From assembly GCA_029247025.1 (NCBI GenBank), contig JAQWLZ010000033.1, positions 1-36,306 of the forward strand: a stretch of 36,306 bases of DNA, given 5' to 3'. This document shows positions 3,052-28,877 of this stretch, piece after piece. The notes under the pieces are model-generated. The model saw only the letters and a list, made by a program, of their open reading frames with translations. It was not told the origin of the DNA and made no database searches. Each line of letters starts with the position of its first letter. Within the stretch, counting starts at the first letter, position 1. The position numbers and the translations under genes are program-made. The stretch comes from Alphaproteobacteria bacterium. Its GTDB lineage: Bacteria > Pseudomonadota > Alphaproteobacteria > TMED109.

Positions 3052-3954
3052 ATGGAAATTTTTGCTCTCTTTGATTGCATAATTACTCCAGCTTGTTTGA
3101 TTTCACAAACGGCTGGAGGACTTAAAATAGGAATGTTATTATTTTTAGTTGCATCCGGTTTAACTTTAGTATTTGGAGTGCTTGGTGTAATTAATTTTGC
3201 GCATGGCGCACTATATATGTTAGGAGCGTATTTTTCATGGCAAGTAATGTCTATAACAGGTCATTTTGGATTAGCTGTAATAAGCGGAGCAATTGGCGTT
3301 GGAATTTTTGGGCTAATATTTGAGAGACTGCTTATTAACAAAGTATATAATTCTGATCTACTTGTTCAAATACTGCTATGTTATTCTGTTATATTGATAC
3401 TAGATGACTTAGTTATGATCATCTGGGGCGATGAATTTTTATCAGGAATAGGAGTTCCTGAAGTTTTTCAAGTTCCTCCTCTATTTATTTTTGACGCAAT
3501 AATCCCACCTTTTCATATTGCAATTATTGTAATTAGTATGATTGTAGCTTTATTGCTTTGGATAATCATGACTAAAACTAAATTTGGAAAATTAGTAAGA
3601 GCAACTGCAGTTAACCCCAGAATGCTTGAAGCACTTGGTATAAATACAAACGTTATTAAAGCTGGAGTTTTTATGCTAGGAAGTTTTTTAGCAGGTTTAG
3701 GAGGAGCTCTTGCAGCTAGTCTTGGCAGTGTAGTTTCTGGTATGGGCAATTCTATAATAATTGAATCATTTATAGTTACGGTTATAGGCGGAATGGGATC
3801 AATAAGCGGCGCTTTTTTAGCCTCTATTATCATAGGAATGGCTCGATCTTTCGGTGCAGTAGCTATGCCATTATTCACAGATGGCATAATGTTTTTGATT
3901 ATGGTTCTTGTACTTGTAATGAAGCCTGAAGGCCTTATGGGAAAGAAAAAATAA
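3052..3954 (+). CDS. livH: Branched-chain amino acid ABC transporter permease (LivH-like)
   Basis: Integral membrane permease of 300 residues with about eight hydrophobic segments. It carries the LivH hallmarks: 'GVINFAHGALYMLGAY' near the N-terminus, the cytoplasmic coupling loop around 'GKLVRATAVNPRMLEALGIN', and 'GGMGSISGAFLAS' near the C-terminus. It pairs with the LivM-like permease that follows. The stop codon overlaps the next start by one base, so translation is probably coupled. The gene symbol is by family only; the substrate may be another amide or amino acid. Confidence 0.92.
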   Translation: MEIFALFDCIITPACLISQTAGGLKIGMLLFLVASGLTLVFGVLGVINFAHGALYMLGAYFSWQVMSITGHFGLAVISGAIGVGIFGLIFERLLINKVYNSDLLVQILLCYSVILILDDLVMIIWGDEFLSGIGVPEVFQVPPLFIFDAIIPPFHIAIIVISMIVALLLWIIMTKTKFGKLVRATAVNPRMLEALGINTNVIKAGVFMLGSFLAGLGGALAASLGSVVSGMGNSIIIESFIVTVIGGMGSISGAFLASIIIGMARSFGAVAMPLFTDGIMFLIMVLVLVMKPEGLMGKKK

Positions 3955-4928
3955 TGGGTTTTTTAAAAAAAGATAACTTTGAAAGAGACGCTTTTATTGG
4001 TCTAATTGTATGGATATTTTTACTTATATTTTACTTTGTTATTCCATCTCCAGGTATACATGATATTATTCAAAAAGTTTTTATACTAGGCCTTTTTGCA
4101 ATGTCTTTAAATATTTTGATAGGATATTTAGGTCTTGTAGCATTTGGTCATGCAACATTTTTTGCTGCTGGAGCATATACATTAGGATTATTCTTACAAT
4201 CAAGTATTGTAAATAACTTAGGAAGTCTATCTATTCCAGCTGCTATAATTTCTGCAATATTTATATCAACTGTATTAGCTGCATTTATTGGTGCTATTTG
4301 CATAAGACTTAAAGATATATACTTTTCATTTCTCACGCTAGCATTTCAAATGTTAATTTATAGTATTATTCTAGCTTTAGTTTCTATTACTGGAGGCGAT
4401 CAAGGTCTAATGGGAGGATTTCCCAAACCTCCATTCTTAGGAATAGATCTGGGTAAACCTTTTGATTTTTATGCATTTACTATTTTTATATCAATAATAA
4501 CTATAGTTTTGCTGAGGCAATTAATAGAATCTCCATTTGGTTATGGTTTAAGAATGATAAGAGATAATCCAGACAGGCCTGCAGCACTTGGTTTTAATAA
4601 CCAAAGACATAAACTAATTGCATTTATTATTGCAGGCTCAATAGCAGGACTTGCTGGCTCCCTCCAAGCGTTGCTCGATGTAGGTGCATATCCGGAATGG
4701 GCTTTTTGGGCTAAGTCTGCGGAACCTTTATTTATGATTCTACTTGGTGGAATGCATTCCTTTTTAGGTCCTCTTATGGGGGCATTTATATTTGAAATTT
4801 TAAATGATTTTGTAACAGCTAATACAAGATACTATGGATTAGTACTTGGATTAGTTATTTTAAGTTTTGTATTAGGTTTAAGAAGAGGGCTGTTAGATTG
4901 GCTTCTCATTAAATTTTATAGAAAGTAA
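3954..4928 (+). CDS. livM: Branched-chain amino acid ABC transporter permease (LivM-like)
   Basis: 324-residue membrane protein, the second half of the translocation pore. Family features are visible: 'YLGLVAFGHATFFAAGAYT' in the N-terminal third, the conserved coupling loop 'GYGLRMIRDNPDRPAALGFN', and 'ILLGGMHSFLGPLMGA' in the C-terminal third. The length is at the short end, without the N-terminal extension found in enterobacterial LivM. It overlaps livH by one base and is followed after six bases by the first ATPase gene, so the five importer genes read as one operon. Confidence 0.92.
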   Translation: MGFLKKDNFERDAFIGLIVWIFLLIFYFVIPSPGIHDIIQKVFILGLFAMSLNILIGYLGLVAFGHATFFAAGAYTLGLFLQSSIVNNLGSLSIPAAIISAIFISTVLAAFIGAICIRLKDIYFSFLTLAFQMLIYSIILALVSITGGDQGLMGGFPKPPFLGIDLGKPFDFYAFTIFISIITIVLLRQLIESPFGYGLRMIRDNPDRPAALGFNNQRHKLIAFIIAGSIAGLAGSLQALLDVGAYPEWAFWAKSAEPLFMILLGGMHSFLGPLMGAFIFEILNDFVTANTRYYGLVLGLVILSFVLGLRRGLLDWLLIKFYRK

Positions 4929-4934
4929 TATATT

Positions 4935-5678
4935 ATGTTAAAAATTAGTGGAATTAGTAAAAGCTTTGGAGGTATAAAAGCAACAGATAATGTTTCTATT
5001 GAGCTTAAACCTAATTCTATAAATGCTCTAATTGGCCCAAATGGTGCAGGTAAAACAACTATATTTAATTTAATTACAGGTAAAATTAGTGTTGACGACG
5101 GCGAAATATTTATAGGCAATAATAATATTACAAATTTAAAAGAAACAGAAATTACACATATCGGGATCGCTAGGGCATTCCAAATAACAAATATATTTTC
5201 TACTTTAAGCGTAAAAGAATCAATTAAAATGGCATTATTAGCAAAAATACATGGATTAAATAACATGTGGGATAGATTTTCTTCACATTCAGTTAATGAA
5301 GAAGCCAATAATATTGCTGAGCTTACTGGCTTAAAGAAAGTTTATAATACAATAAGTTCAGAATTAAGTCATGGAGATCAAAAACTATTAGATATAGCAT
5401 TAGCATTGGCACTTAAACCAAAAGTTTTATTATTAGATGAACCCACCGCTGGAATGGGTCCAGAGGAAAGATGGGAAATGATCAAGAGAATTAAAGAACT
5501 TTGGCAAAAAACTAAAATGACCGTTCTTTTTATAGAACATGATATGGATATCGTTTTTGATATAGCGCAAACTATTTTTGTATTACAACAAGGGTCTGTA
5601 ATTGCTAAAGGAACACCTAAAGAAATTAAAAAGAATCAAGATGTTATTAAGGCTTATCTTGGCGGAGGAAAAAAATAA
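4935..5678 (+). CDS. livG: Branched-chain amino acid ABC transporter ATP-binding protein (LivG-like)
   Basis: ABC ATPase of 247 residues. Walker A GPNGAGKTT is at 34-42. The signature motif is at 144-149 as LSHGDQ, where LSYGxQ is more usual in LivG. Walker B VLLLDEP is at 164-170, followed by the D-loop, and the switch His is H202 in 'FIEHDMDIVFDIA'. The 'PTAGMGPEE' context is characteristic of the LivG branch. It energises the two permeases together with LivF. The stop overlaps the livF start by one base. Confidence 0.93.
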   Translation: MLKISGISKSFGGIKATDNVSIELKPNSINALIGPNGAGKTTIFNLITGKISVDDGEIFIGNNNITNLKETEITHIGIARAFQITNIFSTLSVKESIKMALLAKIHGLNNMWDRFSSHSVNEEANNIAELTGLKKVYNTISSELSHGDQKLLDIALALALKPKVLLLDEPTAGMGPEERWEMIKRIKELWQKTKMTVLFIEHDMDIVFDIAQTIFVLQQGSVIAKGTPKEIKKNQDVIKAYLGGGKK

Positions 5679-6385
5679 TGGATTTATTAGAAACCAAAAG
5701 TATTAATGCTTTCTATGGGAATAGCCAAGTTCTTTTTGAAATGAATTTAAATATTAAAAAAAATAATATTATAGCTTTACTTGGAAGAAATGGTGCAGGG
5801 AAAAGCTCTACTTTCAAAGCCATTACAGGATTAATAAATGTTAAATCAGGCTCTATAAAACTTAAGGGCGAAGAGTTAATAAAACAATCTACAAGTAAAA
5901 GAGCTTTAGCTGGCATTGGTTATGTGCCAGAAGATAGACAAGTTTTTCCGGAACACACTGTTGAGGAAAATATTGAACTTGGAAAAAAAAAGAATTTAAA
6001 CGGCATAGATAATTGGCCAATTGATAAAATTTGGGAAACTTTTCCTATATTAGTAAAATTAAAGAATAGATTAGCTGGTCAACTTTCGGGAGGAGAACAA
6101 CAGATGCTATCCATAGCTAGAACTTTAGTTGGTAATCCAGAAATTCTTTTATTAGATGAACCATCTGAAGGCCTTGCTCCAATTATAGTTGAAGACATAG
6201 CTAAAATACTAGAAAATTTAAAGAAGCTTGGCGTAACTATTCTTTTAGCTGAGCAAAACATGCACTTTTGTATGGAAGTGGCCAAAGAAGCAATTATCAT
6301 AGATAAAGGTAAGGCTGTTTGGACTGGGTCTTTAAATGATTTACAAAAAGATACTAAAACAAGAGATAAATATTTAGCTATTTAA
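5678..6385 (+). CDS. livF: Branched-chain amino acid ABC transporter ATP-binding protein (LivF-like)
   Basis: ABC ATPase of 235 residues, the usual LivF length. Walker A GRNGAGKSS is at 36-44, the signature LSGGEQ at 136-141, and Walker B ILLLDEP at 156-162. 'DEPSEGLAP' and 'LLAEQNMHFCMEVA' are LivF-type motifs. Last gene of the importer operon. It converges with the VWA gene, with only six bases between the two stop codons, so the transcripts must terminate within or beyond the opposing gene. Confidence 0.93.
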   Translation: MDLLETKSINAFYGNSQVLFEMNLNIKKNNIIALLGRNGAGKSSTFKAITGLINVKSGSIKLKGEELIKQSTSKRALAGIGYVPEDRQVFPEHTVEENIELGKKKNLNGIDNWPIDKIWETFPILVKLKNRLAGQLSGGEQQMLSIARTLVGNPEILLLDEPSEGLAPIIVEDIAKILENLKKLGVTILLAEQNMHFCMEVAKEAIIIDKGKAVWTGSLNDLQKDTKTRDKYLAI

Positions 6386-16736: not shown

Positions 16737-18824
16737 TTATTTACCTTCGTTTTCAGCTTCAATCAATGAAAAATCTGCAAAATCTAAAAAAGAACTTCGA
16801 ATCATTGATAAAAGTCTCAACCTGTTTTTTCTAATATCTTCATTATCAATATTAACTTTAACGTTCTCAAAAAAGTTTTCCAATTCTAATACAATTTCTG
16901 AAAATATTTCCATTGCCTTAATATACTCTTCACTTTCTAATAACAATTGTGTTTTATTTGAGTATTTAACATAAGATTTATATAAAACTATTTCTTCTTT
17001 TTGCTCCAGTAACGCTTCTACGGGCTTAGGTGTTATTAAAATATTATCTTTTTTTTCTTCAATACTTAATATTCTTCTAACTCTCTTTAAAATACTTAAA
17101 AAATCATTGCCTTTTGGATCTTCCATAAATTTACTTAATGCATTAATTTTACTAACATCATCCACAATATCTTCAAATTTTGAAACTCCAAATATAGCCT
17201 GAGCAGCTGATTGAGATAAACCTTGGTCTTTAAGAAAAACTCTTAATCTATCATATACAAATTCCACTGTATATTTTTGTGTTTCAGATTTAGAAAGTTT
17301 TAATTTTATATTCTGTTTTTCATATGAATCATAAGAATCATTAATTACATCAATAATAGAAACTCTAACATTTTTTTCTAAAAGAATTCTTATAATACCT
17401 AAACAAGATCTTCTTAACCCAAAAGGGTCTTTAGAACCTGTAGCTTTCATATCCATTGCTATAAAACCGACCAAACTATCTAATTTATCAGAAAATGATA
17501 ATACTGCTGCCTCTGCTATTGAAGGACATTTGTCAGAAGGGCCTAAAGGAGAATATTGTTCTTTAATTGCTATAGACACCTCATTAGGTAATTTAATTGC
17601 TGAGGCATATATACTTCCTATACTACCCTGTAATTCTGGCATTTCATATACTAATTCACTGCATAAATCAGCTTTACAAAATTTAGCGGCAATTAGAGAT
17701 AATTTACTTTTGGCATTAAAACTTTCTGAATATTTAGAAATAATAGATGTTATTCTTGTTACTTTTTCTTCCATAGAACCAAGAGAGCGATGAAATATTA
17801 TATTTTTAAGGTTTTCAGATAATTGATCAAGACCTTTTCTAATATCATTATCAAAAAAGAATCGAGCATCAGATAATCTTGCTTTTAGAACTCTTTCATT
17901 TCCAGAAATAATTTGTAAGTTATTTTCTACTGGAATATTTGACACGCCTAAAAATTTTTTACTTAAAGATCCATTCTTATCATACAGAGGAAAATACTTT
18001 TGCTGTTTTATCATAGTAAGCTCTAAAACTTTCTCAGGAAGAGATAAAAATTCCTCATTGAAAGAACCTATAAATAAAAAAGGATATTCTACTATATTAC
18101 AAACTTCTTCTAATAAATTATCTGAAGGATCAAAGTGTAATCCTATTTTTTTAGTAAGTTTTTTTCCCAATGCAAGAATAGTATCTTTTCGTTCTTGAGG
18201 ATTGACTAAAACTTTCGCATTCAATAATTTTTTCTTATAATCTTCTTTATTTAAAATTCTTAAGGGTTTTGGAGCAAGATACCTATGGCCATAAGTAAGA
18301 GAATCACTCTCTATATTTTCAATTTTAAATTTTAATGGTTTACCTCCAAAAATACATAAAATATTATGTAAAGGCCTTATCCACTTTAAATTATTTGAGC
18401 CCCAACGCATGGATTTATTCCAAGGAAAAGAAACAATTATATTTTTTATTGCATCTTCTATAACTAACTCAGATTTAATTCCTTTCTTTAAGTTTTTATA
18501 AAAATAAAACTTGCCTTTCTCAGTTTCTTCTACAATTAAATCTTTTGTATGAACTTTCAATCCATTAGCAAAGCCATTAATTGCTGCACTATTTGCATCA
18601 AATCTTGGACCTCTTTTATTTATTTCTATATCTTCTGACTTTAAACCCAAACCCTCGACAAATAATGTTAATCTCATAGGACTCCAATAGACTTCAGACT
18701 TAGTAAAATTAAGCCCGACTTCTTTAAAATTATTCAGAATCATAAATTCAAATCTTTTTATTGAAGGCTCTTGTAAGCCAGCGGGTACTTCTTCAGAGAA
18801 AAGTTCTACTAATAATTCTGACAT
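16737..18824 (-). CDS. glyS: Glycyl-tRNA synthetase, beta subunit
   Basis: 695 residues, the usual length for the beta subunit of the bacterial alpha2beta2 glycyl-tRNA synthetase. It binds tRNA and is required for aminoacylation. The start 'MSELLVELFSEEVPAGLQEPSIKRFE' is a textbook N-terminus. The HD-like central region ('DPFGLRRSCLGIIRILLE') and the C-terminal DALR-like anticodon-binding helices are present. Its start abuts the glyQ stop without spacing (18825/18824), consistent with translational coupling and 1:1 subunit production. Confidence 0.97.
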   Translation of the reverse strand: MSELLVELFSEEVPAGLQEPSIKRFEFMILNNFKEVGLNFTKSEVYWSPMRLTLFVEGLGLKSEDIEINKRGPRFDANSAAINGFANGLKVHTKDLIVEETEKGKFYFYKNLKKGIKSELVIEDAIKNIIVSFPWNKSMRWGSNNLKWIRPLHNILCIFGGKPLKFKIENIESDSLTYGHRYLAPKPLRILNKEDYKKKLLNAKVLVNPQERKDTILALGKKLTKKIGLHFDPSDNLLEEVCNIVEYPFLFIGSFNEEFLSLPEKVLELTMIKQQKYFPLYDKNGSLSKKFLGVSNIPVENNLQIISGNERVLKARLSDARFFFDNDIRKGLDQLSENLKNIIFHRSLGSMEEKVTRITSIISKYSESFNAKSKLSLIAAKFCKADLCSELVYEMPELQGSIGSIYASAIKLPNEVSIAIKEQYSPLGPSDKCPSIAEAAVLSFSDKLDSLVGFIAMDMKATGSKDPFGLRRSCLGIIRILLEKNVRVSIIDVINDSYDSYEKQNIKLKLSKSETQKYTVEFVYDRLRVFLKDQGLSQSAAQAIFGVSKFEDIVDDVSKINALSKFMEDPKGNDFLSILKRVRRILSIEEKKDNILITPKPVEALLEQKEEIVLYKSYVKYSNKTQLLLESEEYIKAMEIFSEIVLELENFFENVKVNIDNEDIRKNRLRLLSMIRSSFLDFADFSLIEAENEGK

Positions 18825-19697
18825 CTAAACTTTAACTTTCATATTATTTAAATGAAGCTCAGCACAAGCTTTTACCATTGCTCTGACTCTTCCAATATAG
18901 TCAGCTCTCTCATTAACACCAATTACACCACTTGCATCTATAAGATTAAATATATGACTTGCCTTAATGCATTGTTCATAAGCAGGTAAAACTAAATTAT
19001 CTTCAACTAACTTGAAATTTAATTTTTCTAATTCTTCAAAATTTTTAATCAATACTTTAGGATTAGATTTTTCAAAATTATATTCCGATTGTTCTTTTTC
19101 ATTTTGTAAAAATACATCTCCATATTTTACATTATCTGAATTCCAAACAAGGTCATATACATTATCTATTCCCTGAATATACATGGCTAATCTTTCTAAA
19201 CCATAAGTTAGTTCGCCTGTTATAGGAAAACAATCAATGCCTCCTACTTGTTGGAAGTAAGTAAATTGTGATACTTCCATACCATTACACCAAACCTCCC
19301 ATCCTAATCCCCAGGCTCCCAAAGTAGGGCTCTCCCAATCATCTTCTACAAATCGAATATCATTTTTTTTAGAATCAATACCTAGGTAATTTAAGCTCTC
19401 TAGATATAATTCTTGGATATTATCTGGAGAAGGTTTTAAAACTGTTTGAAATTGATAATAATGTTGAAGCCTATTTGGATTTAATCCATACCTGCCGTCT
19501 GTTGGTCTTCTACATGGTTGAACATATGCAGCATTCCATGGCGTTTCTCCTAGAGCTTTTAAAACAGTGGCTGGGTGGAAAGTACCAGCACCTACTTCCA
19601 TATCTAAAGGTTGAAGGATAACGCACCCTTTATCAGCCCAAAAATATTGTAATTTCATAATAATTGATTGAAATGAGTTATCTTTCATTATCTTCAT
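18825..19697 (-). CDS. glyQ: Glycyl-tRNA synthetase, alpha subunit
   Basis: 290 residues; the class-II catalytic subunit that forms glycyl-adenylate. Typical blocks are '[28 protein letters not shown]', '[14 protein letters not shown]', '[15 protein letters not shown]' and '[21 protein letters not shown]'. Two ATGs (codon 1 at 19697, codon 4 at 19688) are possible starts; both overlap the end of the upstream small gene, by 20 or 11 bases, so translational coupling is likely either way. The enzyme belongs to the two-subunit type, as in most proteobacteria. Confidence 0.97.
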
Positions 19698-19896
19698 CTA
19701 TTTCTGTATAATCAGCTTCTGTATAATTTTTTTTTGATTCTTGAACACCTTCTTTAGCATTCTTTTCTGAAGTTTTTTTACTTTTGTTATTTTCTACTTT
19801 GCCGGAAGATCTCCTTTCCAACATTTTGAATCCATACCAAACTATTAAAATGATAAAAATTAATAATAATATTTTTGGAATACTAAAACCTAACAT
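19678..19896 (-). CDS. Small single-pass membrane protein upstream of glyQ
   Basis: 72 residues. One N-terminal transmembrane helix (about 7-24, LPK to WYG region) is followed by 'FKMLERR' and a highly charged Lys/Glu/Ser-rich tail, probably cytoplasmic and disordered. Similar small proteins with a hydrophobic helix and a 'GFK..ERR' edge are found before glyQ in other alphaproteobacteria, as I recall from family knowledge. Function unknown. It lies 23 bases after the S49 peptidase gene and overlaps glyQ. Confidence 0.75.
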
Positions 19897-19919
19897 AAAA
19901 TTTTATCCTATTAAAATGG

Positions 19920-20753
19920 TTAAAGACCATACCTAGCAAAAGCAATCTTTTCTTCAATATAATCTATTACCTTATAATATTTTGAAGATGATAAACCAAG
20001 TCTTTGACCAAGTTTTTTTCGCCCAGAAATTTCCTTAAAAATTACCTTTTCATCAATACGTTCCCGCATGACCTGCTTTAATTCCCCAATAGAATCTGCT
20101 AATCCTATTTCGCATGCTTTCGCTCCTGAAAAAATCTTTGCTTCAAATATCCCTTCTTTATTTATTATTTCTTTATCAAGTTTATTCCCTCTTCTTTTAC
20201 TAACCCATTCTTTAAATTGATTATGAATTTCTTCTTGTAAATCGGTAATAACTTTTACATCATCAGAATTTTGAGGTTGAAAAGGATCCAACATACCCTT
20301 GTTCTCTCCCTTTGAAAACACTCTTCTTTCTACTCCTATTTTTTTTATAACTTCTACAAAACCAAACCCTGCTGAGATCACCCCTATGGAACCAACTATT
20401 GAAGCGGGCATTACAAATATTTCATCTGCCGAGCACGCTAACCAATATCCACCAGAAGCAGCTACGTCTTCAACAAAAGCAAAAACAGGTATATTATTTT
20501 TACTTGATAACTCAACTATTCTCTCAGATATTAAAGCAGATTGAACAGGTGATCCTCCTGGAGAATTAATTATTAATGCAACACCTGCAATTTTTTTACC
20601 TGTAAAGGCTCTTTCTATTTGTTTTTCTAAACTCTCTAATGATAAATTACTAGACCCTGGAAATTTAGAACCACTCGCTATTACTCCATTCATTCTTATA
20701 ACGTTTATAATTGGAGTATTATTTTTAAAAAATTTAGAAATAAATTTCATCAA
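19920..20753 (-). CDS. S49 family serine peptidase (SppA/SohB-like)
   Basis: 277 residues, a Clp/crotonase-fold peptidase of family S49. The catalytic Ser is S100 in 'EDVAASGGYWLA' and the general base Lys is most likely K152 in 'GENKGMLDPF', matching the 52-residue Ser-Lys spacing of small SppA. The 'NSPGGSPVQS' oxyanion segment is at 63-72. There is no obvious transmembrane anchor beyond a weakly hydrophobic N-terminus, unlike many SppA proteins. Such peptidases degrade signal peptides or membrane-protein fragments. It is flanked by a TrmN6-like methyltransferase upstream (23-base gap) and the small membrane protein downstream. Confidence 0.92.
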   Translation of the reverse strand: MMKFISKFFKNNTPIINVIRMNGVIASGSKFPGSSNLSLESLEKQIERAFTGKKIAGVALIINSPGGSPVQSALISERIVELSSKNNIPVFAFVEDVAASGGYWLACSADEIFVMPASIVGSIGVISAGFGFVEVIKKIGVERRVFSKGENKGMLDPFQPQNSDDVKVITDLQEEIHNQFKEWVSKRRGNKLDKEIINKEGIFEAKIFSGAKACEIGLADSIGELKQVMRERIDEKVIFKEISGRKKLGQRLGLSSSKYYKVIDYIEEKIAFARYGL

Positions 20754-20776
20754 TAAGGTCCTTTTCTATCTTATTA

Positions 20777-21523
20777 TTAACTAAGCTCTATAAAACTTTT
20801 AAAACTTAATATATTATTACAAGCCTTTGTATAACTTCCATCATTATTATGCAATATAAGTCCAGGTAGAATTTGCACACCTGATTTCACATTTTTTTTT
20901 GCTTGTATGATCATCAGCTTAGATTTTGTATTTTTTTTTGGCCATAAAGGAAATATTTTTATATCTCCCCACTTTGGATATAAAAGACTTAGAATTAAAT
21001 CTAAACTTTCTGTCCTAAAAATAAAATTTAAATAACCTTTATTTTTTAATTTTTTATATGCTGCTGTAAACCATCTATTAATGTCATTTTCATATCTAGC
21101 GGAAATTTTAGAAATATCTCTAGATAATATAACTTTATTAGGAGAAAAATAGGGAGGGTTCATAATTACTCTATCATATTCATTATTATTGTTTTTCAAA
21201 AATGTACTATCATTTATATCATATTGTACTACCTCAGCACTACCATTAGCTATATCATTTTCTTTTAAATTTATTTTAACTAAATTCACTAGATCTAAAT
21301 TTTTTTCTATTCCTAATATTTTTGAATTCGGAAACTTCTTAGATAAATAAATTAAAATAATTCCTGAACCAGTCCCAAACTCTATACAATTTGAATATTT
21401 ATTCACTGATGATGCCAGCAATATAGAATCAGCTCCAATTCTAAAGCCTTTTTTTGGTTGGTACAATGAAATATTACCATTCAAAATATTATTTTTAGTT
21501 AGATCTAATATATTACTGGCCAC
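20777..21523 (-). CDS. tRNA1(Val) (adenine37-N6)-methyltransferase-like protein (TrmN6/YfiC family)
   Basis: 248 residues with a GTG start. An SAM-dependent class-I methyltransferase. The TrmN6-type entry 'QPKKGFRIGADSILLA' is at 22-37, the SAM motif EFGTGSG at 48-54, and the N6-adenine catalytic motif NPPYF at 122-126. These features fit TrmN6-like enzymes that methylate A37 of tRNA1(Val), although the family also contains enzymes with other nucleic-acid targets. It is divergent from the polyprenyl synthase gene, an arrangement common in alphaproteobacteria. Confidence 0.87.
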   Translation of the reverse strand: MASNILDLTKNNILNGNISLYQPKKGFRIGADSILLASSVNKYSNCIEFGTGSGIILIYLSKKFPNSKILGIEKNLDLVNLVKINLKENDIANGSAEVVQYDINDSTFLKNNNNEYDRVIMNPPYFSPNKVILSRDISKISARYENDINRWFTAAYKKLKNKGYLNFIFRTESLDLILSLLYPKWGDIKIFPLWPKKNTKSKLMIIQAKKNVKSGVQILPGLILHNNDGSYTKACNNILSFKSFIELS

Positions 21524-21624
21524 AAACCACCTAACGAAGTTAATTAATAAATATAAATATATTTATTTTATATATAAACTACACTATAGAAGAAAAATGA
21601 TTAATTAAATTAAAAAAAACTCTA

Positions 21625-21630
21625 TATAAT
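21625..21630 (+). promoter_or_regulatory. Possible -10 box for the polyprenyl synthase gene
   Basis: A perfect TATAAT lies 29 bases before the proposed TTG start, within the 135-base divergent region. No good -35 at the right distance; in such AT-rich DNA TATAAT can occur by chance. Confidence 0.25.
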
Positions 21631-21658
21631 ATATATTAAAAGGTTCTATCTATTAATA

Positions 21659-22678
21659 TTGTTAATTTGGAATTTAAAAAAATTGAACTCAATTAATAAA
21701 ATATATCTAAATATTGCTCAAATTCAAAAAATTGTAAGTAATGATTTAGAAAATGTTAATAATATCATTATACAAAATATAGGAAATGAAGTTCCTATGA
21801 TTAGTGAATTATCTAAACATATACTTGCAGCTGGTGGAAAAAGAATACGTCCAATAATTACTTTATTAACTTCTAAATTATGTAATTATGAAGGTAAAAA
21901 CCATTTATCTTTAGCAGCTTGTATAGAATTTATTCATACTGCTACATTACTTCATGATGATGTAATAGATGAGAGTAAATTAAGAAGAGGGGTCGCAACT
22001 GCAAATGATATTTTTGGAAATAAAACTAGTGTATTAGTGGGAGATTTTCTTTTTTCTAGATCATTTGAGTTGATGGTAGAAAATGGATCCAAACAAATTC
22101 TAGAAGTATTGTCGAGTGCTTCCTCTACTATAGCAAAAGGTGAAGTACTTCAACTTACTACTGTCAATGATTGTTCTACATCTAAAGAAACTTATCTAAA
22201 TATCATAAATAGCAAAACAGCAAGTTTATTTGCAGCAGCAGCTGAAATTAGTGCAATACTTTCTAATAAGAATAAGTTAATTCAAAATGCTCTAATGACT
22301 TATGGTCAAAAATTAGGAATAGCTTTTCAACTTACAGATGATGCACTTGATTATATAGGTTCTGAAAACTTAGGTAAAGAAATAGGAGATGATTTTAAAG
22401 AAGGTAAAATTACTCTTCCAGTTATTATATGTATAAAAAAAGCAAATAAAGAAGAAATTTTATTTTGGAATAAGACTATTGAAAATTTAAATCAGACAGA
22501 TCAAGACCTAAACACTGCACTTATATTAATGAAAAAATATAAGGCGATTGAAGAAACTTTAGCATTAGCAAATAAGTATTGCTCAGAAGCAATAAATGCA
22601 CTTGAAGTTTTTCCATCATCAGAAGAAAAATTAGCTTTAGAATCTCTTGCAAAAATAGCAATAAATAGATCAAAATAG
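21659..22678 (+). CDS. ispB: Long-chain trans-polyprenyl diphosphate synthase (octa/decaprenyl type)
   Basis: 339 residues. It adds IPP units to make the ubiquinone side chain. Motifs: GGKRIRP at 59-65, first Asp-rich D100-D-V-I-D104, RRG at 109-111, second Asp-rich D227-D-A-L-D231, and GDDFKEGK at 243-250. Residues just before the first Asp motif are small (A95, T96) rather than aromatic, which indicates long-chain products. No ATG lies near the N-terminus. The furthest start is TTG at 21659, with another TTG eight codons later; the ribosome site is poor (AAAGG about 15 bases up), so the exact start is uncertain. It is divergent from the TrmN6-like gene. Confidence 0.92.
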   Translation: MLIWNLKKLNSINKIYLNIAQIQKIVSNDLENVNNIIIQNIGNEVPMISELSKHILAAGGKRIRPIITLLTSKLCNYEGKNHLSLAACIEFIHTATLLHDDVIDESKLRRGVATANDIFGNKTSVLVGDFLFSRSFELMVENGSKQILEVLSSASSTIAKGEVLQLTTVNDCSTSKETYLNIINSKTASLFAAAAEISAILSNKNKLIQNALMTYGQKLGIAFQLTDDALDYIGSENLGKEIGDDFKEGKITLPVIICIKKANKEEILFWNKTIENLNQTDQDLNTALILMKKYKAIEETLALANKYCSEAINALEVFPSSEEKLALESLAKIAINRSK

Positions 22679-22738
22679 ATATTTATTTTATTTAAAGTTA
22701 TTATAAGAATATTAACTTAAAATATACAGGAATTTGCT

Positions 22739-23218
22739 GTGAATTTATTTTTTAAACATACATTATATTTATTAGTTTATGCTGTATTAATTATTAATAA
22801 GTCATATTCTGATTGGGCTACCGTTGAATTTTTACAAAATGATGGTTCAAGTATAGGAATAGCTGAAGGGGCAGATAGCTGGTTTCTCAATGCACCCGCA
22901 TTTAAGTTTGATTTAAAGAACCTAGAGCCTGGTATATATAGAATAGCTCTTTATGATGGCAAATCATGTTTAGACTATGGAATTTCAGCAGAAATTAGCA
23001 ACCCAAAACTAAAAAGTTGGCATACTTCAAAGTTATTAATTATAGAAGCTAATCAAGAAGGAATATTTAATACTACACTAGGCATTAAACCAGAAGTCTT
23101 TAATGAAGATTCTAGAAACTTAATATCTATTAGCAGTATTAGAGGCCATCCTTTACTAATATTTAAAATTAATAATGATGAATTAATTGCTTGTGGAGTA
23201 GTTCCTCTAAGAAATTAA
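22739..23218 (+). CDS. Secreted Cu/Zn superoxide dismutase-like protein lacking the metal ligands
   Basis: 159 residues, GTG start, Sec signal to about residue 24 (SYS-D). The mature part follows the Cu/Zn-SOD layout. 'LEPGIYRIALYDGKSC' (62-77) aligns with the PG-x-H-G-F-H-I-H-x2-G-x-C strand. 'IRGHPLLIF' (134-142) aligns with the I-x-G-R/H-x-L-V-V-H strand. 'ELIACGVV' (148-155) aligns with the C-terminal R-x-A-C-G-V-I. The two Cys (77, 152) sit where the SOD intrasubunit disulfide is. However, the copper His pair is replaced (Y-R-I-A), the last copper His is Phe142, the zinc loop has no His cluster and the active-site Arg is missing, so catalysis is not expected. The similarity is from reading motifs only. 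It might be a structural or copper-independent derivative. Confidence 0.6.
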   Translation: MNLFFKHTLYLLVYAVLIINKSYSDWATVEFLQNDGSSIGIAEGADSWFLNAPAFKFDLKNLEPGIYRIALYDGKSCLDYGISAEISNPKLKSWHTSKLLIIEANQEGIFNTTLGIKPEVFNEDSRNLISISSIRGHPLLIFKINNDELIACGVVPLRN

Positions 23219-23227
23219 ATATTAAAA

Positions 23228-23767
23228 CTATAAATTTTTTGCAGGCAATCTCCACCAACCTAAAAATTCAATAGTATTCTCTCCAGCAGTAAAAATTTGC
23301 TCCATATGTAGTCTTGCAGTACCGCTAATTCCTGAATATTTGCCGGTACCAGACATAAAATCTAATCTTCCTTCGCATCTTACATCTGTCGAAACAGTTG
23401 CTCCGCTTGAACATTCTAATTTTGCTACAATTGATTCATTATTCTTATCTTTAATTACACAATAGCCAGATACATTTTCCATTTGTGCAAATCCACAACT
23501 AAAGCCTCTTCCTGGAGCAGCATACGCAGTAACTTTGCAATCTATGAAACCTCCGTCTAATTTTCCTGCACTATTAATAATAGCAGAAAAGCTAGACATA
23601 GCTACAATAGTTTCTCCTATGACAACTTCATTTACTTCCGGCTTATCAATATATTTTGCTACTAGAGAAATTTCTTCTGCATCCTCAGGAATATCTGAGT
23701 TATTTGAGAATGCTATTTGTGTATTTATCAATATAAAAACAAATATAGTATAAAATAATTTAGACAA
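23228..23767 (-). CDS. Secreted protein of unknown function with a G-T-G-K-Y-x-G-I-x-G motif
   Basis: 179 residues from a TTG at 23767 (an in-frame ATG lies upstream at 23812). I prefer the TTG because it has a GGA site seven bases upstream, gives a standard signal peptide (SKLFYTIFVFILINTQIAFS), and leaves 53 bases before the divergent hyi start instead of eight. The mature part is Gly- and beta-rich, has five Cys, and carries 'DFMSGTGKYSGISGTARL' near its end. This resembles motifs in small secreted beta-barrel proteins, but I do not recognise the family with confidence. It converges with the SOD-like gene (nine bases between stops). Function unknown. Confidence 0.65.
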   Translation of the reverse strand: MSKLFYTIFVFILINTQIAFSNNSDIPEDAEEISLVAKYIDKPEVNEVVIGETIVAMSSFSAIINSAGKLDGGFIDCKVTAYAAPGRGFSCGFAQMENVSGYCVIKDKNNESIVAKLECSSGATVSTDVRCEGRLDFMSGTGKYSGISGTARLHMEQIFTAGENTIEFLGWWRLPAKNL

Positions 23768-23820
23768 TTTTTTTCCATTAAAAATATTGCTGCTTATAAT
23801 AACATATCGCATAATGACTT

Positions 23821-24603
23821 ATGATCAAACTTTCTGCAAATTTATCATTTTTATTTACTGAGCTACCATTTGAAAAAAGATTTAATGCCGCTGCAAATAT
23901 AGGTTTTAAAGCAGTTGAATTTTTATTTCCATATAATTATCAAATAAATAACATTAAATCTTGGTTAGAAGAAGCAAACTTAAACTTAGTTTTATTTAAT
24001 TCCTATCCTGGTTATTTAGAAAAAGGAGAAAAAGGAATTGCATGCCTTATCGGAAGAGAAAATGAATTTAAAGAAAAATTTAGCATAGCATTAGAATATG
24101 CAGAACAATTAAAGTGTCCTTTTATACATATAATGCCAGGAATTGAATTAGATGAAAAATATAAGAATAAATACAGAGATATATTTAAAAAAAACCTTAG
24201 CTACGCAGCTAATTTGTCTAAAGAAAAAAACATAACTATATTAATAGAAGCTATTAATGATAAAGATATACCCGCCTATCACCTAAATTATGTGTCTGAT
24301 GCAATAGATATTATTGAAGAATTAAATCATCCATACCTAAAACTTCAGTTAGATTTATACCACGCACAAATAATGAGTGGTAATTTAACTAGTATAATTG
24401 AAAAAAGTATTAGTTATACAAAACATATGCAAATTGCATCTCCTCCATATAGGTATGAACCAAACAAAGGAGAAATTAATTTTCAATTTATTTTTAGCAT
24501 AATAGAAAAACTAAAATATGATGGATATATAGGTTGTGAATATAATCCTTCAACTAATACTAAAGATAGTTTACATTGGGCACAAAATTATAATATTAAA
24601 TAA
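23821..24603 (+). CDS. hyi: Hydroxypyruvate isomerase-like TIM-barrel protein
   Basis: 260 residues, the typical Hyi length. It isomerises hydroxypyruvate and tartronate semialdehyde in glyoxylate metabolism. The start 'MIKLSANLSFLFTELPFEKRF' is the family's N-terminus. Likely metal-binding/catalytic residues: E143 (ILIEAIND), D178 and H181 (LQLDLYHAQ), Q204 (MQIASPP) and E240 (IGCEYNP). 'NKGEINF' is the family's late loop. No clear ribosome site precedes the ATG. It is followed by a PuuD-like membrane protein after 51 bases on the same strand. Confidence 0.88.
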   Translation: MIKLSANLSFLFTELPFEKRFNAAANIGFKAVEFLFPYNYQINNIKSWLEEANLNLVLFNSYPGYLEKGEKGIACLIGRENEFKEKFSIALEYAEQLKCPFIHIMPGIELDEKYKNKYRDIFKKNLSYAANLSKEKNITILIEAINDKDIPAYHLNYVSDAIDIIEELNHPYLKLQLDLYHAQIMSGNLTSIIEKSISYTKHMQIASPPYRYEPNKGEINFQFIFSIIEKLKYDGYIGCEYNPSTNTKDSLHWAQNYNIK

Positions 24604-24654
24604 TTTATATATTTCTAATAGAAGTGTATTATTATTTATAATATGGAGGTAAAT

Positions 24655-25254
24655 ATGGCGAATATTCTTACATCACTAACAAAGACGATATGGGCAGGTA
24701 TTGCTCTAACGATTTTATTTATTATTTATTATATTTCAACTGGTGGGGCTCTAGATGCAGCATTCTGGTCTACGATACTTAGATATGCTCATGTTCTTGC
24801 TGGAATAATGTGGATAGGTCTTTTATGGTATTTCAATTTTGTACAAATACCAAATATGCCAAAAATTCCAGACGAACAAAAGCCTGCTATTGGAAAAGTA
24901 ATAGCACCAGCTGCTCTATTTTGGTTTAGATGGGGAGCAATGGCCACGATTATTACAGGATTACTAGTAGCATACCTTAATGGATATTTAATCCAAGCTA
25001 TAACTATAGGTTTAATTGATGGGGTTGCAAAACATACTGCTATTGGAATAGGAATGTGGCTAGGAACTATAATGTTTATAAATGTTTGGTTTGTTATATG
25101 GCCAAATCAAAAAAGAGCTCTTGGTATAGTTGAAGCTGATGCAGACACTAAAGCTGCATCCGCCAGAACAGCTATGCTATTTAGTAGAACTAATACATTA
25201 CTATCTATTCCTATGCTATTTGCTATGGCTTCTGCTCAAAACATATGGGGATAA
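24655..25254 (+). CDS. Membrane protein with PuuD-type urate hydroxylase N-terminal domain (PF06181-like)
   Basis: 199 residues from the ATG at 24655. This start is preceded by a perfect GGAGG five bases upstream; the ATG at 24643 overlaps that site and is rejected. About five transmembrane helices: near 10-30, 41-62, 85-108, 125-149 and 177-195. 'LRYAHVLAGIMWIGLLWYFNFVQIP' and 'WFRWGAMATIITGLLVAYLNGY' are the hallmark of the membrane domain of PuuD, which oxidises urate and passes electrons to a C-terminal cytochrome c. The cytochrome domain is absent here and no CxxCH is seen. Whether the stand-alone domain acts on urate is unknown. The neighbour hyi fits a purine/glyoxylate theme. A strong terminator follows. 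Confidence 0.8.
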   Translation: MANILTSLTKTIWAGIALTILFIIYYISTGGALDAAFWSTILRYAHVLAGIMWIGLLWYFNFVQIPNMPKIPDEQKPAIGKVIAPAALFWFRWGAMATIITGLLVAYLNGYLIQAITIGLIDGVAKHTAIGIGMWLGTIMFINVWFVIWPNQKRALGIVEADADTKAASARTAMLFSRTNTLLSIPMLFAMASAQNIWG

Positions 25255-25265
25255 TTTAAATATAA

Positions 25266-25302
25266 AATAAAGGAAGAGATCGCTTTATTCTCTTCCTTTA
25301 TT
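25266..25302. terminator. Bidirectional intrinsic terminator
   Basis: A perfect 14-base inverted repeat (25266-25279 with 25289-25302) around a 9-base loop. The stem core is AAAGGAAGAGA, with a T-rich 3' arm in both directions. It fills the 50-base gap between the stop codons of the PuuD-like gene and the convergent amidohydrolase gene and would serve both. Confidence 0.88.
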
Positions 25303-25304
25303 AC

Positions 25305-26990
25305 TTATGCATGAAATCCACGAAGTACTTTTCCTGGTAAATTTTTATTATCGATTATAGAATTTTCATTAAAAACCTTTTCTCCATTTATCCAAACACT
25401 ATGAATTCCATGTCCATCAATATTTAATCTACTAGAACCACCAGGAAGATCATTAACCCTGTATGTTTTGGATACACCTACTTTATCAAAATCTATAAGC
25501 ATCATATCTGCATATTGTCCAGGAACTAACCTACCTCTTTGATCAATTCTATAAATATCAGCCTGTTTTCCCGTTAGGTTATAAATAGCTTTTTCCTTAG
25601 ACATCAAATTATTTTCTCTAACCCATTTTTCTAGCATATACAAACCATAACCAGCATCATTAAAGAATGTTAAATGTGCTCCTGCATCAGATAATGTAAT
25701 ATTAGAGCGCGGATGTTTAAGTAACCTTCCAACTGCTTCTTCGTCACTATTTAATAACATAGCAATAAATAAAGTATCCATTCCATCTTCTGTTAATGAG
25801 TGATTTAAAAGCCAGTCTAATGGATTAATATTATTTTGTTTTGCAATATCTTTAATTGATAAGCCCTCTAAATCAATAAATTTTTTATTTGTAACTTCCC
25901 TAACAATAATTTTATCCCAATCTCCATTAAATAATCTTACCTGAGCTTCATCTTCAATTTCATTTAATAAGTTTTTACGAAAACCATTATCAGCCAACAC
26001 CTTTCTATATAGCTCATCAGTTGGACATTCCATCGCTGGTTTCCAATTTTTAATTCCTTCAAATAAATATGGTGATTTCATTGTAAACTCCATAGAAAGC
26101 GGTCTACATGAAACTTGTCCCCATATTTCATTTCCTTTATCTGCTGCTTTAGTAATGTCAGACAAAATATTAAATGTTGAATTATCAGATAAAGGGTTAT
26201 GTAAAAGTGCAGCAACTACTGCAGGTCTATTCGACCCTTTCATCCATTCCTGAATATTATCTATAGAAGTGTTTGAACCTCTCGTTAGCATAAATATGCC
26301 CCTGCCAAATGAAGACATGGCTTTTATGAGAGACTGCATTTCAGTTTTATCTGCTAGCCTAGATGGCATAGGAACACCATTTTCGCCATTATGTCCTTCA
26401 AAAGTTGAAGTAGCAAAACCTAAACCACCCTTAATCATACCTTCTTTAATAATATTTTCCATTTCTATTATTTCATCATTATTTGCTTTTCTAGTTAAGG
26501 CTTCTTCTCCCATAACGTAAACTCTAACTGACGAATGTCCGATATAAGCTGCCACATTTGGTCCAACTCCCCTATCTTCTAAAAAATTAAGGTACTCAGG
26601 AAATGTTTCAAAACTCCAATTTATTCCCTTTTTAAGTGCGTCTAATGACATTCCCTCTACATTGGTAAGATTTTTAATTGTTAATTCTCTATGTTCAGCT
26701 TTACATGGTGCAATTGTGAATCCACAATTACCAATTATAATTGTCGTGACTCCTAGTTTTGGAGATGGGTTAGCCCATGGGTCCCAAGTTAACTGAGCAT
26801 CATAATGTGTATGACTATCTATAAAACCCGGAACTAAGCTTAAGCCTTTTGCATCAACAATAGTTTTTGCATCGCCTAAATCTTTTCCTCTATTTACTAT
26901 AATGCCATCATCTACAGCTATATCTCCTGTAAATGATGGCATACCTGTCCCATCAATAATATTTGCATTTTTTATTATCAGATCAAACAT
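25305..26990 (-). CDS. Amidohydrolase family 3 protein, N-acyl-D-amino-acid deacylase type
   Basis: 561 residues. A metal-dependent hydrolase: the beta-sandwich start 'MFDLIIKNANIIDGTG' is followed by the HxH ligands H60 and H62 in 'FIDSHTHYDAQLTWDP'. 'GNCGF' at 87-91 gives the Cys (C89) that ligates zinc in D-aminoacylases. 'HPRSNITLSDAGAHL' provides the catalytic Asp near the end of the barrel. The C-terminal strands re-enter the sandwich ('VWINGEKVFNEN'). It is longer than classical D-aminoacylase (about 480), as in a broader group of uncharacterised homologues. The substrate is unknown; N-acyl-D-amino acids or other cyclic amides are possible. It starts one base after the GlcG-like gene's stop, so it is cotranscribed. 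Confidence 0.88.
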   Translation of the reverse strand: MFDLIIKNANIIDGTGMPSFTGDIAVDDGIIVNRGKDLGDAKTIVDAKGLSLVPGFIDSHTHYDAQLTWDPWANPSPKLGVTTIIIGNCGFTIAPCKAEHRELTIKNLTNVEGMSLDALKKGINWSFETFPEYLNFLEDRGVGPNVAAYIGHSSVRVYVMGEEALTRKANNDEIIEMENIIKEGMIKGGLGFATSTFEGHNGENGVPMPSRLADKTEMQSLIKAMSSFGRGIFMLTRGSNTSIDNIQEWMKGSNRPAVVAALLHNPLSDNSTFNILSDITKAADKGNEIWGQVSCRPLSMEFTMKSPYLFEGIKNWKPAMECPTDELYRKVLADNGFRKNLLNEIEDEAQVRLFNGDWDKIIVREVTNKKFIDLEGLSIKDIAKQNNINPLDWLLNHSLTEDGMDTLFIAMLLNSDEEAVGRLLKHPRSNITLSDAGAHLTFFNDAGYGLYMLEKWVRENNLMSKEKAIYNLTGKQADIYRIDQRGRLVPGQYADMMLIDFDKVGVSKTYRVNDLPGGSSRLNIDGHGIHSVWINGEKVFNENSIIDNKNLPGKVLRGFHA

Positions 26991-26991
26991 A

Positions 26992-27498
26992 TTATTTTAG
27001 TAAATCTTTCACTGCCTCAATTGCTGCTATAGCACATTCTTCATCTTGATCACCTGTAGCTCCACTTATTCCTATAGCGCCAATAAGATGTCCGCTTTCA
27101 GTTCTAATTGGCATACCACCTGGAAAAGGTACTAAAAAATCTACAGTAGAAATTCCAGGAAGTCTTCCCGGATCGCCATCTTTACCATAAGCCAATTCTC
27201 CAATTACTCTTGTGGGATATGGAATCATAATAGCAGACTTAGCTTTATTTAAAGCGATATCTATACTTCCTAAAAACGCTCCATCTTGTCTTCTAAATAA
27301 GATTAAATCAGAACCAGAATCTACTATTGCTATATTTAATGGTCTCCAATCTGTAGTAGCTTTTTTTGCTTCACAAGCATCTGCCATTTTCTTAGCTAAA
27401 TCTAAATCCATTAATGGTTTTACTTCTAGTGCAAAAGCAACTTTACTTATTAATATAATTCCTAATGCTATTGTTAATAGCTTAGTAAAAAATCTCAT
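26992..27498 (-). CDS. Exported GlcG/HbpS-family protein
   Basis: 168 residues. A Sec signal is present (K7, hydrophobic 8-21, cleavage after AFA at about 23), so the protein is periplasmic. The domain is GlcG/HbpS (formerly DUF336): 'NIAIVDSGSDLILFRRQDGA', 'ALNKAKSAI', and the hallmark 'GGMPIRTESGHLIGAIGISGATGDQDEECA' (about 127-155). HbpS in Streptomyces binds heme; GlcG appears with glycolate oxidase genes, but its role is unclear. The start has AAGGAGA. It lies 60 bases after DUF1489 and one base before the amidohydrolase gene. Confidence 0.9.
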   Translation of the reverse strand: MRFFTKLLTIALGIILISKVAFALEVKPLMDLDLAKKMADACEAKKATTDWRPLNIAIVDSGSDLILFRRQDGAFLGSIDIALNKAKSAIMIPYPTRVIGELAYGKDGDPGRLPGISTVDFLVPFPGGMPIRTESGHLIGAIGISGATGDQDEECAIAAIEAVKDLLK

Positions 27499-27558
27499 AT
27501 TATTCTCCTTTTACTTTTATATTTTATTCTAAATAGATAGTCATTATATATGTAAAAA

Positions 27559-27963
27559 TTAAATAATACATAATTCTTTTAAAATTTTTATAAGCTCCCC
27601 ATCTAACCTTTTTTCATCCAAAGACAAATCTTTAGGAGCTTTTTCCATATTAAGATATCTCCAACCTTGAAAAGGTCTATACCTAATAACTTGAGTTTCA
27701 ATTAATTTTTTATCTAAAATTATATGACAATATTGGATGCCATTATCATGTTCTACTTTTTTTATATCTCTAATTTTTTGTCTGACAGAAATAAAACCAT
27801 TTATGACCCAATACATTGAGCCATTATTTTTTACTTCTAAATATTTTTTAGGAAATAATCTTGTAATATGTGTGTTATTTCCATACTTTTGACGCTTGAT
27901 TTCTTGTCTATCTTTTAAATCTTCTACACTGTTTATGCCAACTGCTAACTTAATTATATTCAT
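27559..27963 (-). CDS. DUF1489 family protein
   Basis: 134 residues. Matches DUF1489 by its opening 'IIKLAVGINSVEDLKDRQ', the central 'SMYWVINGFISVRQKIRDI' and the late 'RPFQGWRYLN'. The family is essentially restricted to alphaproteobacteria and has no assigned function. No signal or membrane segment, so it is cytoplasmic. It starts eight bases after the HMG-CoA lyase stop, so it is probably at the end of the leucine-degradation operon. Confidence 0.88.
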   Translation of the reverse strand: MNIIKLAVGINSVEDLKDRQEIKRQKYGNNTHITRLFPKKYLEVKNNGSMYWVINGFISVRQKIRDIKKVEHDNGIQYCHIILDKKLIETQVIRYRPFQGWRYLNMEKAPKDLSLDEKRLDGELIKILKELCII

Positions 27964-27971
27964 TTAAAAAT

Positions 27972-28877
27972 TTAATTAATTCTTTTTTTCTTAGAGGCTA
28001 AAGCATTATAAACTCTCGATGAGGGGATTCTACCTAACTTTTCAAAAACAAATTTTGAGGCACTACATATTTCTTCAATGTCAACGCCAGTTTCTATACC
28101 CATTCCATTTAACATGAATAAAACATCTTCAGTGGCGACATTACCTTTTGCACCAGGTGCATATGGACATCCTCCCAAACCTCCTACTGACGTATCTATA
28201 ACTTTAACTCCTATTTCTATACTAGCCAAAATATTTGCTAAAGCTTGCCCATAGGTATCATGAAAATGAACTGCAAGCTTTTCAACACCTACAGCTTCTT
28301 TGCAGGCTTTTATCATATCTTTAGTTTTAATTGGTGTTCCACTTCCTATAGTGTCGCCCAAAGATATTTCATAGCATCCTATTTTAATTAATTCTTCTGA
28401 TAACTTTGCAACTTTTATTGACTCTATTTCATTTTCATATGGGCAGAACATAACAGTAGAGATATATCCTCTTACCTTTAAACCTTTATTTATAGCTTCT
28501 TCTGCTACTTCTTTAGCTCTTGCTAATGCCTCCTTAACAGAACAATTTGTATTTTTTTTTGAAAACGTTTCACTTGGAGTAGCAAAAACGCACGCAGTAT
28601 CACTATTATATTTTACAGCATCTTCTAAACCTTTTAAATTAGGTGTTAATACAGGATACTTAATATTATTTTTCTTATTAATTCTTGAAAGAACAGTATT
28701 AGAATCTGCCATAGCAGGAACCCATTTAGGTGAAACAAAAGCTCCGCTCTCTATAAACAATAAACCTGTCTCAGAAAGAATATTTATGAATTTAATTTTA
28801 TCATTAGTATCTAATGGTATTTTTTCGTTTTGTAGACCATCTCTTGGACCCACTTCATATATAGTTATATCTATCAT
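27972..28877 (-). CDS. liuE: Hydroxymethylglutaryl-CoA lyase
   Basis: 301 residues. The last step of leucine degradation: HMG-CoA to acetyl-CoA + acetoacetate. TIM barrel of the DRE family: 'EVGPRDGLQNE' (8-18, with R12, D13), the metal His pair in 'VHFHDTYGQAL', and the catalytic Cys in 'GLGGCPYAPGAKGNVATED'. The ATG follows the TAA of the upstream carboxylase gene with no spacing (TAAATG). Also named mvaB in other species. Confidence 0.96.
   Translation of the reverse strand: MIDITIYEVGPRDGLQNEKIPLDTNDKIKFINILSETGLLFIESGAFVSPKWVPAMADSNTVLSRINKKNNIKYPVLTPNLKGLEDAVKYNSDTACVFATPSETFSKKNTNCSVKEALARAKEVAEEAINKGLKVRGYISTVMFCPYENEIESIKVAKLSEELIKIGCYEISLGDTIGSGTPIKTKDMIKACKEAVGVEKLAVHFHDTYGQALANILASIEIGVKVIDTSVGGLGGCPYAPGAKGNVATEDVLFMLNGMGIETGVDIEEICSASKFVFEKLGRIPSSRVYNALASKKKRIN

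Follow-up and report, generated by a model that had tools for sequence, protein, structure and literature searches.

In Bacillus subtilis there is a SOD-like protein, YojM (PDB 1s4i, 1xtl, 1xtm), which excerpts of two papers describe as being without two of the copper ligands of Cu/Zn-superoxide dismutase (SOD), as not binding copper and as inactive (PMC10432803, PMC6322740). Vaccinia A45R is, according to an excerpt of another paper, a non-functional SOD-like protein, and its homologue in Leporipoxvirus disrupts the SOD1 of the host (PMC9282662). Human SOD1 without its metals is stated in the abstract of a further paper to be intrinsically disordered (PMC6995586). From human SOD1 a protein without loops IV and VII has been engineered (PDB 4bcz, 4bd4).

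Pseudoenzymes reveal how folds are reused. Here we describe from the Alphaproteobacteria a small family of SOD-like proteins, for which a search of the open-access literature found no paper describing it. The original prediction for the gene from which the analysis started was an exported protein of SOD fold that had lost its metal-binding residues. Nine homologues and a transitive homology to the bacterial Cu/Zn-SOD (SodC; PF00080) now speak for this; the fold has been modelled with low confidence and is likely rather than established.

The SOD-like gene and its surroundings

The family as sampled comprises nine copies in two clades. The window clade is named after the window (the whole stretch of DNA that was analysed, 36,306 nucleotides, G+C = 31%) and consists of five genomes of the window's own family; the second clade, g201, consists of four genomes of one distant genus of the same class. 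The window is part of genome G000 (1.50 Mb, 73 contigs, 74.6% complete). On its + strand the SOD-like gene (22739..23218) encodes a protein of 159 amino acids, with GTG as start and TAA as stop; its orthologues, from four further genomes of that family, start with ATG and have a hydrophobic N-terminus. Residues 1-24 (22739..22810, + strand) read as a likely Sec-type signal peptide, after which the mature protein would start with Asp25, which is invariant in 9/9 family members in the alignment of the nine homologues. Judged by its sequence, the product is apparently exported.

The mature SOD-like domain (residues 25-159; 22811..23215, + strand) was defined from alignments, low-confidence models and profile comparison. 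It carries the signature D46-S-W-F-L50 (22874..22888, + strand), invariant in 9/9 family members. Two residues of it, W48-F49, are inserted relative to SodC, which has a gap opposite W48 in 33/33 sequences and opposite F49 in 32/33. The features that follow, all on the + strand, were placed by alignment with SodC. The stretch PGIYRIALYDGKSC (residues 64-77; 22928..22969), the counterpart of SodC PG-x-HGFHxHExxxC, contains the first disulfide-column cysteine, Cys77 (22967-22969), and is followed by a shortened zinc loop (22976..23035). RGHPLLIF (residues 135-142; 23141..23164) is the counterpart of SodC G-x-ALxIH, and behind it only a tight hairpin is left of the electrostatic loop (23165..23194), which includes the second disulfide-column cysteine, Cys152 (23192-23194), in ACGVV (residues 151-155). 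The pattern of SodC motifs that had been recognised in the original prediction is present in these three blocks.

The gene starts 60 bases 3' of an ispB-like polyprenyl synthetase gene (21659-22678; PF00348, E 2.3e-73) and 9 bases separate its end from that of a convergent gene (23228-23812); the names ispB, enoyl-CoA hydratase and ilvD used here were assigned by reading of translations. Co-transcription with ispB is possible. Promoter-like sites were no more than expected by chance (6 found versus 10.2 expected in shuffles). The surroundings in the window (16737-28877) are those of ordinary housekeeping, with glyS/glyQ, an SppA-like peptidase, a TrmN6-like methyltransferase, a hydroxypyruvate-isomerase-like TIM barrel (fold by Pfam search) and proteins resembling N-acyl-D-amino-acid hydrolase and HMG-CoA lyase (names from translations).

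The convergent gene (23228-23812, - strand) encodes a protein of 194 amino acids with a signal-like N-terminus, several Cys, a YAAPGRGFSCGFAQMENVSGYC core and no Pfam match, a relative of which lies beside ispB in all nine family genomes in which the ispB locus was read. A functional link between this gene and the SOD-like gene was considered and dropped because the neighbour remains where the SOD-like gene is absent.

Descent from SodC and fate of the metal site

The window protein gave no Pfam match and no PDB sequence match at E<=10, and PF00080 was absent from the matches of all five window-clade members; the search with this HMM, which had been proposed as a check of the original prediction, thus gave no match for the window protein itself. 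Against a SodC HMM the window protein scored 2.0 bits, which 2/2000 composition shuffles equalled; with an HMM of 33 SodC the members of its clade had -0.5 to 3.8 bits, scores reached by 2 to 34 of 2000 composition shuffles. The profile of the window clade aligned by hhalign with 32 SodC at E 0.059 over 24 columns (13/300 column shuffles as good), and with three SodC at a probability of 1.5 and E 0.033; neither match is significant.

The g201 members gave a different result. They scored 7.3-21.9 bits against the HMM of 33 SodC, with 0/2000 shuffles as good for each, and against a separate HMM of 22 SodC the four had 11.2-20.6 bits, where none of 9000 pooled shuffles exceeded 8.1; the five window-clade members, at -1.1 to 4.6, stayed below this best shuffle. 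By hhalign the g201 alignment matched 32 SodC with a probability of 96.9 and E 1.9e-10 (0/300 column shuffles as good; the reversed alignment, as control, scored 18.7 versus 63.1 for the real one). PF00080 was the only Pfam family matched by g201, in 3/4 members (E 0.0016, 0.0055 and 0.032; none in the fourth), at 15.1-19.3 bits versus a curated cut-off of 28.9 and hence below it. In the PDB one g201 member had 6 matches listed at E<=10, every one of them a SOD, with 5in2 at E 7.7e-4. With a g201 member as query, tblastn over 72,556 plasmid records found two places, both annotated as superoxide dismutases (E 0.02 and 0.03; individually weak).

The alignment of all nine members matched three SodC with a probability of 46 and E 2.1e-4, and its profile had two PDB matches at E<=10, each to a Cu/Zn-SOD (E 0.019 and 1.5). 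Over 385 genomes of the class the matches of the same profile at E<=0.001 were two members already known and a canonical SodC; for the latter, at E 7.6e-4, about 0.3 chance matches are expected, so that this match is weak alone. Since the window clade belongs to one family with g201 (E 4.5e-18) and g201 matches SodC, the window protein is a descendant of SodC; on the sequence comparisons, common descent is secure only via the g201 bridge and not by the window clade alone.

For the fold, two AlphaFold models were made, of the full-length and of the mature protein, each from five-sequence alignments; both are of low confidence (pLDDT 54.5 and 53.5; pTM 0.37 and 0.38). Among the Foldseek matches listed, SODs accounted for 50/50 (model 1) and 46/50 (model 2), counting as SOD 6adq_Y, which is a chain from a respiratory complex whose title names SOD; the best E values were 0.013 (model 1) and 0.009 (model 2), none <=0.001. 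VIA-align gave Z up to 6.7 for model 1 (rmsd 4.9, 98 aligned), with SODs in 50/50 matches listed, and Z up to 4.3 for model 2, with 48/50 matches listed of SOD fold, including domain 2 of CCS; Z values below 8 are, according to the tool, common for unrelated folds. Because of the low Z and of pLDDT ~54 the fold searches support the SOD fold, with its Greek-key beta-barrel, without establishing it. Structure prediction with Foldseek was another of the checks proposed; nearly all matches listed are Cu/Zn-SODs, at low confidence of the models.

The residues of the metal site were compared in an alignment of the nine family members with 33 SodC. Among these SodC, His46, His48, His63, His71, Arg143 and both Cys are present in 33/33, Asp83 in 32/33, His120 in 31/33 and His80 in 25/33. 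In the window protein the copper pair is replaced, His46 by Ala70 and His48 by Tyr72, the copper ligand His120 by Phe142, the bridging His63 by Ile86 and Arg143 by Leu149; of the zinc ligands His71 is deleted and Asp83 replaced by Lys98, and His95 stands at the His80 column. The window protein is thus without the copper ligands, the complete set of zinc ligands and the Arg143 with full-length electrostatic loop of a catalytic SodC. The absence of the copper His pair, of the last copper His and of the active-site Arg, all claimed from the single sequence, is borne out by the alignment; the absence of the zinc-loop His holds for His63 and His71, but His95 occupies the His80 column, although it is not conserved.

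Across the family His63 is lost, His71 deleted and Arg143 lost in 9/9 each. The His46 column has A in 5/5 of the window clade and R, R, R and L in g201; the His48 column has Y in 4/5 and H in 1/5 of the window clade, and H in 3/4 of g201; the His120 column has F in 5/5 of the window clade and H, F, F and R in g201. Asp83 is kept in 4/4 of g201 and in 0/5 of the window clade. At the His80 column H is found in 2/9, the window included, the other eight having K, K, N, H, R, R, R and R. Both loops are shorter than in SodC: the stretch that runs from the first Cys up to the position of Asp83 has 21-22 residues in the family versus 30-40 in the 33 SodC, and the one from the position of His120 up to the last Cys 9-11 versus 21-24. 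The two cysteines of the disulfide columns, Cys77 and Cys152 in the window, are present in 9/9 family members and in 33/33 SodC, as had been expected of two Cys at the places of the SOD disulfide. Collecting homologues, the remaining check proposed, confirms the conservation of both Cys and the loss of His46, His63 and His71 in all nine, but His48 and His120 persist in some. The ligand pattern across the two clades is, as far as the alignment tells, one of graded erosion of the metal site.

Besides the losses there are residues invariant in the family and lacking in SodC, namely the W48-F49 insertion within DSWFL and Lys117-Pro118. R135-G136 was also considered as a new surface and was dropped, G136 being Gly in 30/33 SodC and R135 being Arg in 5/33.

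Separately, a SodC above the Pfam cut-off in another genome (locus L030 of G031) has Thr at the copper His120 column (IIVTAKPD); partial loss of the copper site may also occur in such near-canonical SodC.

Distribution, selection and gene history

Carriers of the window clade are G000, G001, G003 and G006, which belong to one genus (4/7 genomes), and G009, in sum 5/28 genomes of the family; a search at the level of the order returned the same number of genomes, 28, as the family. The orthologues are 48-57% identical to the window protein. All ten window-family genomes that are >=90% complete and <=5% contaminated are without the protein. The window-clade profile over the 385 class genomes found one clear further relative, in G254 (E 4.5e-18, positions 6-155), and among the relatives of G254 (143 genomes) there were three more copies, all in genus g201, which brings the count to 4/4 g201 genomes; 0/5 other listed genomes of g201's family carry the protein. 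Among 398 genomes drawn from the phylum, the window's own copy was the only one found.

A scan of genome contigs with the single window sequence gave no match, and the same scan with the window-clade alignment found four loci, on the same contigs as the genome search. Against phages the window protein had one match at chance level (E 0.7), against PHROGs none, and the five-member alignment had no match among viral contigs. With the nine members NCBIfam gave two chance matches of one member, far under cut-off. Six weak, short matches of the window-clade profile (L010 and L012-L016; E 0.006-0.054; five from the 385-genome draw) were taken as chance, as was a sub-cut-off match of a window-clade member (L002) to the Pfam family Por_Secre_tail (E 0.063).

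The open reading frame is intact in 9/9 copies (that of L024 has some ambiguous bases), and in the joint alignment 21 mature residues are invariant across both clades. By Nei-Gojobori counts, in which dS near or above 1 is imprecise, the ten pairs of the window clade have dN 0.19-0.51, dS 0.77-1.50 and a ratio of 0.21-0.61; of the six pairs of g201, the three in which dS was finite have dN 0.04-0.18, dS 0.21-1.18 and a ratio of 0.15-0.19; and three pairs of IspB have dN 0.09-0.21, dS 0.60-1.54 and dN/dS 0.13-0.19. These values indicate that the SOD-like gene is under purifying selection, with a constraint looser than that on IspB.

The settings of the gene differ: it lies after ispB, elsewhere in the genome in G006, and in g201 beside an enoyl-CoA hydratase gene, with ilvD on the other side in 3/4. 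The ispB site is probably ancestral within the window's family because G000, G001, G003 and G009 share it. In G002, G004, G005, G006 and G007 there are 14-79 bases between ispB and the convergent neighbour, which leaves no room for the SOD-like gene; this reading of the empty site covered five of the ispB loci found, with an ispB match in 23 genomes. The gene was probably lost cleanly several times from the ancestral ispB site, with repeated gain at this site as a possible alternative. As the gene is found in only 5/28 genomes of the family, its function must be dispensable.

The copy that G006 has elsewhere in its genome is 61% identical to that of G009 and 51% to that of the window, and the IspB of G006 is 86% identical to that of the window genome and 58% to that of G009. 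This mismatch points to an origin of the G006 copy by transfer or by an old duplication. The gene lies there (L020) near several small proteins with a signal-like N-terminus (787-1137, 3944-4414, 4528-4884 and 5479-5814), none with a Pfam match over cut-off; the surroundings look like a variable island.

Proposed role and comparison with known systems

We consider it probable that the protein is a secreted, metal-free pseudoenzyme with the barrel of Cu/Zn-SOD, kept by selection and most likely having a binding or structural role. This explanation is built on the homology to SodC via the g201 bridge, the loss of ligands and loops, the retained cysteines and the constrained evolution of the codons. 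The detail of the fold, export, formation of the disulfide, absence of metal and the binding role are what we infer from there. The protein would be exported via Sec to the periplasm, and its beta-barrel would be held by the ancestral disulfide Cys77-Cys152, a bond suggested by the alignment columns. The former copper pocket would be repacked by the hydrophobic Ala70, Tyr72, Phe142 and Leu149, and neither binding of Cu or Zn in the manner of SOD nor dismutation of superoxide would be expected. A putative new functional surface or partner site would be made up of Lys117-Pro118 and the W48-F49 insertion in DSWFL. A binding or structural role is the most likely one by exclusion.

The barrel might, instead, still hold Cu or Zn via remaining His, Asp and Tyr and serve, without catalysis, as a periplasmic buffer or carrier. 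In g201 His48 (3/4), Asp83 (4/4) and His120 (1/4) are kept, as expected if the site has been eroded stepwise and partial sites persist in relatives; in the window clade, however, no His is invariant (His48 in 1/5, His at the His80 column in 2/5), the only invariant Cys are the two of the disulfide columns, and beside the gene no copper or zinc transport gene was recognised by reading the translations of the loci. A metal-binding protein of this kind we regard as unlikely. That the gene is a remnant of sodC, without function and decaying towards loss, is quite improbable: its patchy presence, its clean absence from the ispB site in the five genomes named above and a protein change faster than that of IspB would fit decay, but not the open frame in 9/9 copies, the 21 mature residues that do not vary between or within the two distant clades or the dN/dS ratios of both clades (0.21-0.61 and 0.15-0.19).

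The copper chaperone CCS has a SOD-like domain and is a model for helper action on SOD. For a role as chaperone, heteromeric partner or decoy towards an active SodC in the same cell there is a precedent, by the excerpted account, in the Leporipoxvirus homologue of vaccinia A45R, which disrupts host SOD1 (PMC9282662). A SodC above the PF00080 cut-off was found, however, in 0/28 genomes of the window's family, the five carriers included, and in 0/4 g201 genomes, where the only PF00080 matches, below cut-off and in 3/4 genomes, are the SOD-like protein itself. Sub-cut-off matches in 5/28 genomes of the window's family (E 0.16-0.29; that of G000, E 0.23, is to another gene) were taken as chance. 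G412, another genome of g201's family, has two SodC above the cut-off, and SodC is present in 35/190 genomes of a draw from the class, so that its absence is common in itself. As none was seen in nine carriers, which are 61-98% complete, an obligate SodC partner is unlikely and a helper within the same cell is disfavoured to the point of being very improbable; a target in other organisms is possible. Equally slim is the chance that the protein is an unrelated secreted beta-sandwich with SodC-like motifs by coincidence: the window clade indeed has no direct significant sequence match, but the g201 bridge, the two Cys and the motif blocks in register, and the SODs that head each of the fold searches argue for kinship with SodC.

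Returning to the metal-free barrel, we see evenly balanced chances for the wider proposal of a natural family of SOD barrels, free of metal and with trimmed loops, that has acquired a new binding function in the periplasm and of which intermediate stages are still alive. These stages would lead from canonical SodC via g201, with the site partly eroded, to the window clade, where a hydrophobic plug would take the place of the copper and the new surface around W48-F49 would be invariant. If true, bacteria would offer an example of an enzyme turning into a binding protein in steps that are still readable, and a natural metal-free, loop-poor barrel that keeps its disulfide Cys would show stabilisation by repacking of the metal pocket. 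Relatives of SodC exist under the Pfam cut-off and are not to be counted as antioxidant enzymes. The family being small, the wider significance is moderate.

With SodC the protein shares a likely signal peptide, the order of the motif blocks, the disulfide cysteines and likely the same barrel; it differs from SodC in being without the copper site, the bridging His and Arg143, in its short zinc and electrostatic loops and in its position below the Pfam cut-off. YojM, by its description in the excerpts, is likewise a bacterial SOD paralogue lacking copper ligands, and it is the top VIA-align match listed for model 2, tied with many (Z 4.3, rmsd 4.5, 101 aligned); here, in contrast to what is described for YojM, His46, His63, His71 and Arg143 are lost in all nine members and both loops are shortened. 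The engineered SOD1 without loops IV and VII, of which 4bd4_F is among the VIA-align matches listed for model 1 (Z 5.5, rmsd 3.4, 90 aligned), is similarly a metal-free barrel with trimmed loops, but it is a human laboratory protein, whereas the natural family keeps the two disulfide Cys and would have its metal pocket repacked. The poxvirus homologues, as far as the excerpt goes, are also non-functional SOD-like proteins; they are viral, whereas here no SodC is seen in the carrier's own genome. Inactive proteins of the SOD fold are thus already known, and the present family is, by its aligned residues, a further and more thoroughly stripped variant.
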